DNA of 64,000 nucleotides. Origin: Gammaproteobacteria bacterium. GTDB taxonomy: Bacteria; Pseudomonadota; Gammaproteobacteria; Poriferisulfidales; Poriferisulfidaceae. Below the pieces are notes generated by a model, which was given only the letters and a program-made list of their open reading frames with translations, was not told where the DNA came from and ran no database searches. Both the position numbers and the translations under genes were made by a program. This document shows, one piece after another, positions 30,825 through 32,355 of the stretch. The DNA lies in contig JAPPLD010000013.1 of assembly GCA_028819565.1 (NCBI GenBank), positions 24,893 to 88,892 on the forward strand, given 5' to 3'. Positions within the stretch are counted from its first letter, which is position 1. Every line of letters begins with the position of its first letter.

Positions 30825-30857
30825 AAAAAAGCGCCGCTTTATGCGGCGCTTTTTTTT
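30825..30857 (+). terminator. Rho-independent terminator after fae
   Basis: AAAAAAGCGCCGC-TTTAT-GCGGCGCTTTTTTTT. Confidence 0.95.
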
Positions 30858-30959
30858 GGGCTTATATACAATGATCTGCAAGGCCCTTGATAATTCATTC
30901 ATATTCAATATCTTATAAAGTTTTTGGCGAGTCGGTTTCCGGCGTGGCATAATCCGTTG

Positions 30960-32270
30960 ATGATTCGCTCCTCCGTCTATCGCCTGTATCCGGGCACCCT
31001 GCGCCGGGCGCAGTTGCTGTCCGGCGTCGCCGGAGCCAACCGCTACGTCTGGAACTGGGCGATCGGACAGAACCGCGACGCGATGAAAGCCTATGAAGAA
31101 GGTAAGGGCGAAAAGCCGTCGCCGACTTTCTTCACTCTGGGGCTGGAATTCACGAGACTGCGCAACAGCGAAGACCACGAATGGCTGAAGGCGTTGCCGT
31201 ATGCGGAAGTGCGGTATGTCCTGAAGCGGTATGCGGATGCGATGAGAGAGGCCAGGAAAGGCCGGCGCGGATTTCCGAAGTTCAAGCACAAGGAAGACGG
31301 TGACTCGTTCACCATTCCGCAGAACGTGCGGATTGAGAATAACAGGCTGTACGTCACCAAGGTGGGCTGGGTGCCGATCAGTCGCCAGGGCGGCGACCCG
31401 TGGGCGCACGGGAAAGTGAAACAGGCTGTGGTGGTCAAGCCTCCCAGCGGGAAGTGGCATGTGTCGTTGTTTTGGGAAGTCCCGGATGCAGAACTGAAGG
31501 ACAACGGGGAAGCGGTGGGACTGGACATGGGCAAGTGGAACGTGGCGACTACCGAACCGCAGCGGATCTTCATGCCGGACGTCTCCCGTCTTGAAACTCG
31601 GCTGAAGCGGCACCAGCGAAAGATGCACCGGCGAAAACGCGTGCCCTTGTTGGATGCAGACGGGGAGCCAAGGCGAACCCGGCAAGGCAAAGCCATCACG
31701 GTGAATTCGCGCCGCCGCGAGAAGGAACGGAGGATCGTGGCGAAACTGTACCGGAAGGTCGCCCACATCCGGGACAATTGGAAGCACCATGTCAGTTGCG
31801 ACTTGGCGAGCCGGTTCGGGACGGTCTGCGTGGAAGACCTGAAGATCAGGAACATGATGAAGTCGGCCAAGGGCACGATGGAGAAGCCGGGCAAGAATGT
31901 CAAGGCCAAATCATCCTTGAACCGGGGAATTGCGGAAAGTGGCTGGGGTCGGTTGCGCTGGATGCTGGACTACAAGGCGCACCGGGTAGAGAAGGTCGAT
32001 CCAGCGTACACGAGCCAGCGTTGCCACCAATGTGGGCACGTGGCGGAGGAGAATCGTCGGGAGGAGAGATTCAAATGCGTATCCTGCGGATACGCGGGGA
32101 ACGCGGACATTAATGCCGCGTTCAATATACTGGCGTTGGGGACTGGCGCGGCTGGACAGGGAGGGGCGTTCGCCTCTGTCAGAGCCGGACCTCCGGGTGC
32201 GGTTCTTTCAAGTGACCCCGATGATCTGTTTATAGATATACAAGGTCTGCTTGCGGATTATTGTGTATAA
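30960..32270 (+). CDS. tnpB: RNA-guided endonuclease TnpB (IS200/IS605 or IS607 accessory protein)
   Basis: RuvC motifs VGLDMGKWN, VEDLKI, GNADINAAFNIL; zinc finger CHQCGH...CVSCGYAGNAD. Confidence 0.93.
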   Translation: MIRSSVYRLYPGTLRRAQLLSGVAGANRYVWNWAIGQNRDAMKAYEEGKGEKPSPTFFTLGLEFTRLRNSEDHEWLKALPYAEVRYVLKRYADAMREARKGRRGFPKFKHKEDGDSFTIPQNVRIENNRLYVTKVGWVPISRQGGDPWAHGKVKQAVVVKPPSGKWHVSLFWEVPDAELKDNGEAVGLDMGKWNVATTEPQRIFMPDVSRLETRLKRHQRKMHRRKRVPLLDADGEPRRTRQGKAITVNSRRREKERRIVAKLYRKVAHIRDNWKHHVSCDLASRFGTVCVEDLKIRNMMKSAKGTMEKPGKNVKAKSSLNRGIAESGWGRLRWMLDYKAHRVEKVDPAYTSQRCHQCGHVAEENRREERFKCVSCGYAGNADINAAFNILALGTGAAGQGGAFASVRAGPPGAVLSSDPDDLFIDIQGLLADYCV

Positions 32271-32271
32271 G
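32130..32271 (+). ncRNA. Probable omegaRNA/reRNA scaffold overlapping tnpB 3' end (boundaries approximate)
   Basis: Stem-loops after the RuvC-III motif: GAGG-GGCGTTCG-CCTC and CCGGA-CC-TCCGG (32185-32196); by analogy with characterised TnpB loci. Confidence 0.4.
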
Positions 32272-32355
32272 TCTCCTTTTTTTATGCCGCAGTTACAATG
32301 TCTTCTCCGGGAAAACCTTGAGGAAAGGCCTCGCTGGCACTCAGGGAGCATAGAA

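Follow-up and report, generated by a model that had tools for sequence, protein, structure and literature searches.

The role of the RNA-guided endonuclease TnpB is usually explained through the way in which the transposases of IS200/IS605 and IS607 elements leave the donor site. IS200/IS605 elements use a Y1 TnpA, produce no target-site duplication, and insert 3′ of a fixed short motif. Bacterial TnpB has been described from IS200/IS605 and IS607 elements, and Bao and Jurka found bacterial TnpB-only elements to be without terminal repeats or duplications (PMC3627910); Fanzors, which occur in eukaryotes, have been described from DDE elements (PMC3627910, PMC10711439). Our literature search, outside which subscription papers and preprints mostly lay, found no bacterial TnpB in IS1595-, ISL3-, or DDE-type elements. 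Duplications of 8 bp are typical of IS1595 elements, and Merlin, the eukaryotic relative of this family, has a terminal GG (PMC8101967). Here, we analyzed a TnpB element in a 64,000-nucleotide stretch (the window) of contig JAPPLD010000013.1 from a gammaproteobacterium whose genus (Ca. Porisulfidus) consists of sponge symbionts. With a probability of about 0.8, we consider the element to be a non-autonomous IS1595-type DDE transposon that carries TnpB as cargo and is mobilized in trans by a DDE transposase.

The original prediction had placed the element between positions 30861 and 32271, with inverted ends of 22 bp. The inverted repeat proved to be real, since positions 30861 to 30882 (CTTATATACAATGATCTGCAAG) agreed with the reverse complement of 32250 to 32271 at 19 of 22 positions. 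A combined pattern of both ends, allowing up to three mismatches, matched exactly these two sites in the 64 kb (chance expectation, 0.00), and 29 of 30 Markov-shuffled 1.5-kb segments contained no 22-mer inverted pair of equal quality. The inverted ends are the true borders of the mobile unit, the limits of which lie slightly further out than first proposed, at 30857/30858 and 32275. The left border is formed by GGG at 30858 or by T at 30857 and the right border by ...GTCTC at 32275, and the terminal inverted repeat measures about 25 to 26 bp in an element of about 1.42 kb. Its left copy, of IS1595 type, occupies 30858 to 30882 on the forward strand (GGGCTTATATACAATGATCTGCAAG), and its right copy occupies 32250 to 32275 on the reverse strand (reverse complement GAGACTTATACACAATAATCCGCAAG). 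An 8-bp direct repeat, CTTTTTTT, which had been overlooked, flanks the inverted ends at 30849 to 30856 and 32276 to 32283, the junctions reading GCGGCG-CTTTTTTT-T-GGGCTTATA ... GTATAAGTCTC-CTTTTTTT-ATG. Two relatives (G001 and G002) carry the unoccupied site GCGGCGC-TTTTTTT-ATG, with a single CTTTTTTT where the window has two; the pair is an 8-bp target-site duplication. The target was the T-run of an intrinsic terminator (30825 to 30857, forward strand; a perfect inverted repeat of 13 nt ahead of T8) located behind a formaldehyde-activating-enzyme-like gene. Since a T-run is weak evidence on its own, further copies were examined.

Two more near-complete copies of the element, with 91% and 85% identity, were found in the window's genome, and others were found in related genomes. 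A sister copy in G002 (L015/L051) displayed a perfect AAAGTTTT duplication on both flanks, and its empty site was located in the window's own genome, where the alignment ran through the junction without a gap. The G001 copy is flanked by ATAATATT and ATAATGTC; its empty sites read ATAATATC in two relatives and ATAATATT in two others. Besides the window copy and L015/L051, four TnpB elements had one-copy empty sites in one to four genomes each. TnpB elements of the genus outside the window's clade showed the duplications GTATTGGA, TATAATTA, GTATATTG, ACTACTAA, GTTTATTT, ATGCGTTT, and ATCCGATG, and for the first three of these, aligned empty sites with a single target were recovered in three or four genomes each, some of them with one additional base nearby. 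To compare agreement of the left and right 8-mers within and between loci, we ran a permutation test on 25 TnpB loci whose borders had been placed automatically. Within loci, 113 bases matched, compared to a maximum of 90 in 20,000 permutations. The test is conservative because of the automatic borders, which were based on a consensus and were wrong for a few copies (G002_C13a, G001_C30, and G000_C31); these were reset by means of the duplication and the empty sites. The other copies and empty sites, which could have moved the borders elsewhere, left the inverted sequences in place as ends.

Two insertions displayed further peculiarities. The L059/L007 copy (G000 contig C6, 39.7 to 41.1 kb) has a degraded left end, and the sequences at its flanks are separated by about 217 bp in G002; this copy seems to have been accompanied by an adjacent deletion. 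Another element (L116:632-1974; G000 contig C31, approximately 103132 to 104473), the only copy of TnpB lineage D, is inserted directly after the start codon of ispF, and its right terminal repeat apparently provides a new in-frame ATG (MYKSP-RIGHGYDVHAF), by which this essential gene may still be expressed.

The kinship of the ends was revealed by a query consisting of the repeat's first 15 bases, which matched TnpB elements and also paired GGGAATTATATACAA-like ends 2.2 to 5.6 kb apart. These pairs enclose transposases and are bordered by the perfect 8-bp duplications AAAAAGAA, TAATGAAA, and GATAAAAA. Pfam assigned the enclosed transposases to the IS1595 family (DDE_Tnp_IS1595), with a zinc ribbon where this was scanned. 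The window's repeat agreed with that of the IS1595 element on C16 at 14 of its first 15 bp. L120, an IS1595 element from the same genome as the window, has ends identical at 30/30 positions (GGGAATTATGTAGCAAAATCTGCAAGCGCA) and the duplication GGCCATTT; in an ungapped comparison counted by eye, its ends agreed with the window's repeat at 20 of 26 positions. The same GGGAATTATGTAGCAAAATCTGCAAGCGCA ends are common to most TnpB elements of clade C, while the ends of clade B are those of an ISL3 element in G003 (GGCGCTTCCGGGTTTCGTGTGGAA, with the duplication TCCAAAAC). Measured against the IS1595 family, the elements of the window's clade thus have the 8-bp duplication (CTTTTTTT in the window, AAAGTTTT in the sister copy, and ATAATATC) and terminal repeats homologous to those of IS1595 elements (14/15 and 20/26). 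A transposase with a zinc ribbon and DDE_Tnp_IS1595 was not found within the element, such transposases being encoded elsewhere in the genome; therefore, it represents an IS1595-type non-autonomous element and not an IS1595 insertion sequence. The original prediction of mobilization in trans through unusual ends was right in outline, although it had missed this relationship.

Other IS1595-type elements of the genus carry cargo of their own. L120 (L120:44-2723; G000 contig C2) encodes a fusion of a DNA methylase with an HNH domain, adjoining the transposase, and L109 (G005 C81) and L110 (G002 C18) contain additional genes between perfect 8-bp duplications, those of L109 apparently being related to DNA modification. 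In two clade C elements, L069 and L078, the TnpB proteins are 90% identical and the terminal repeats differ in their inner half; these differences are matched at both ends of each element (20/20 in L069), which gives the impression of ends taken over from another IS1595 element.

In a TnpB tree, clades A (the window), B (ISL3-type ends), and C (IS1595-type ends) each formed a single group with 99 to 100% support, in agreement with the class of ends. The genus harbors three supported TnpB clades in such elements, two of IS1595 type and one of ISL3 type, and for two of the three, matching ends also bound real IS1595 or ISL3 transposases. Relatives of clade C were detected in G200, from another family of the class, with 20/20 ends and the duplication ATGAGAAT; the association of TnpB with transposon ends therefore reaches beyond one genus.

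The only gene of the element is tnpB (30960 to 32270, forward strand), which encodes a 436-aa protein with an intact RuvC D/E/D triad and zinc ribbon. The protein scored 233 bits on NF040570 (cut-off, 100), contains PF07282, PF01385, and PF12323 (OrfB_IS605 and Cas12f1-like), and aligned to the ISDra2 TnpB structure 8bf8 (E = 5.3e-22); the catalytic D, E, and D columns were preserved in all TnpB clades compared. The likeness to Fanzors is confined to the arrangement, and the bacterial host and the scores on TnpB models class the protein as TnpB. A possible promoter, TTGGCG-18-CATAAT (30924 to 30953, forward strand), was read from the sequence immediately 5′ of the start codon, which raises the question of whether the transcript would be leaderless. 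As first noted, the tnpB stop codon (TAA, 32268 to 32270) sits within the right terminal repeat.

The 3′ end of tnpB overlaps with a guide RNA (reRNA or omegaRNA) scaffold predicted at 32126 to 32275 (forward strand) from an alignment, a consensus fold, and a single fold. Seven copies aligned without gaps over the final 176 nt. The 46 nt from 32137 to 32182 were identical in all seven, while the full-length proteins are 77 to 91% identical to that of the window; this identity suggests a constraint on the RNA. The predicted scaffold ends in a hairpin (32236 to 32268, forward strand), the 3′ arm of which is supplied by the right terminal repeat, confirming the self-folding right end noted earlier. 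Across the copies, 97.8% of the cells of its 13 pairs were paired. Three pairs were changed on both sides, in one cell each; the covariation support for the hairpin is modest because these double changes seemingly all stem from the single most divergent copy. The fold of the window's RNA was somewhat better than that of shuffled sequence (z = -1.71). The RNA scaffold of Fanzor1 is predicted to include terminal repeats and duplications (PMC10711439), and by analogy the right repeat of our element may play a double role as DNA end and RNA scaffold.

From this anatomy, we infer that a resident IS1595-family transposase mobilizes the element in trans. TnpB would be expressed from the element, and its transcript would yield a guide RNA at the 3′ end. 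The guide, predicted to start at the right copy of the duplication (32276 to 32283) or just beyond it, would read the right-hand flank, so that the unoccupied version of the element's own insertion site could be recognized and cut, and repair would then copy the element back. At the DNA level, the right terminal repeat would be bound by the transposase, and at the RNA level it would form the final hairpin of the guide RNA scaffold. Cutting of the unoccupied site with subsequent copying back has been proposed for TnpB in IS200/IS605 elements (PMC10432273). TnpB probably helps the retention of the element in this way.

Several observations weigh against this interpretation. The left T-run of the window is one T longer than the duplication predicts and than the empty sites show, most simply by a slip in the T-run, and three of the six full-length copies of the window's clade have no clean duplication. 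In six genomes of the genus, a scan recovered no autonomous IS1595 element whose repeat is exactly that of the window, the nearest matches being the 14/15 and 20/26 given above. Furthermore, when 17 insertions were searched for an adjacent motif (TAM), the sites of the window's clade had none in common, which leaves cutting of the empty site as a prediction. Separately, about half of the clade C insertion sites have T-R-A-T spanning the left-hand duplication junction, which is reminiscent of known TnpB adjacent motifs; as a post hoc observation in a small sample, we do not claim it as one.

The lack of a shared motif would also suit TnpB as a passive passenger, or as a protein serving the host or other mobile elements, in which case IS1595-type ends would suffice for movement and the nuclease would give the element no advantage. 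Genus IS1595 elements do bear other cargo, such as the DNA methylase-HNH protein. We regard this explanation as rather unlikely, because the catalytic residues and the RNA-like 3′ end have been kept across copies 77 to 91% identical to the window's, and because the same association recurs in three or four TnpB clades, which is unexpected of a chance passenger. A standalone TnpB element of the IS200/IS605 type (IS1341-like), with subterminal hairpins that mimic inverted repeats by chance, would account for a protein of the general TnpB family and for a right-end hairpin like those at IS605 ends, and the window copy alone lies in a T-run, in which a duplication is hard to prove. Such an element is very improbable given the independent insertions with 8-bp duplications and one-copy empty sites and given ends that match IS1595 elements. 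A scan of the same kind did not detect such ends at canonical TnpB loci from three other genera (G251, G278, and G020). The earlier statement that the element encodes no TnpA holds for the entire assembly, in which the Y1 (HUH) TnpA profile PF01797 had no match while control profiles matched. The missing Y1 TnpA, the 8-bp duplications, and the empty sites speak against IS200/IS605 membership, and the ends are of neither the IS200/IS605 nor the IS607 type.

We attach hardly any weight to the idea that a serine recombinase moves the element as an IS607-like derivative, one of the two options originally put forward. The protein does score 95.9 bits on the IS607 model, far under the cut-off of 350 and under its score on the IS200 model. 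Serine recombinase PF00239 was absent from five of the six genus genomes, including the window's, and long terminal repeats and 8-bp duplications are foreign to IS607; the absent PF00239 and the duplications speak against this membership. To our knowledge, neither serine-recombinase nor Y1 elements generate an 8-bp duplication. With the window's assembly 96.7% complete, the absence of a gene is strong, not absolute, evidence. The non-autonomous IS1595-type transposon with TnpB cargo is thus the reading that we retain. Going beyond it, we tentatively propose, as a view somewhat short of even odds, that bacterial TnpB lineages have entered a lasting partnership with two DDE families (IS1595 and ISL3), in which the terminal repeat was recoded into the guide RNA and the nuclease drives retention or homing, as a bacterial counterpart of Fanzor1.

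TnpB clades in IS1595- and ISL3-type elements break the rule that ties bacterial TnpB to IS200/IS605 and IS607, and they indicate that the partner switching known from eukaryotic Fanzors occurred in bacteria too. This suggests that some "orphan" TnpBs have been misfiled, their duplications never having been looked for. The elements constitute a simple bacterial system in which to ask whether an RNA-guided nuclease aids a DDE transposon. Compared to known systems, the window's element resembles IS1341-type TnpB-only elements of the IS200/IS605 group in that tnpB is the sole gene and the guide RNA is expected over its 3′ end; unlike these, for which terminal repeats and duplications were reported to be absent (PMC3627910), it has both. 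With the IS1595 family (PMC8101967) it shares the 8-bp duplication, repeats that begin with GGG, a related terminal repeat, and the passenger genes seen in genus members, whereas it lacks a transposase and carries an RNA-guided nuclease as cargo. In the same genomes, the ISL3 family is represented by a sister clade of TnpB, with ISL3-type ends (GGCGCTTC...GTGTGGAA) and 8-bp duplications; the window's own ends are not of this type. Finally, as in Fanzor1 and captured Fanzor2 (PMC3627910, PMC10711439), a TnpB-like nuclease, in those systems sometimes the sole gene, lies between terminal inverted repeats flanked by target-site duplications, with a terminal repeat predicted within the guide RNA scaffold; in contrast to Fanzors, which are found with hAT, Mariner, Helitron, and other elements, the nuclease here is a bacterial TnpB, and the ends are of IS1595 type (ISL3 type in the sister clade).
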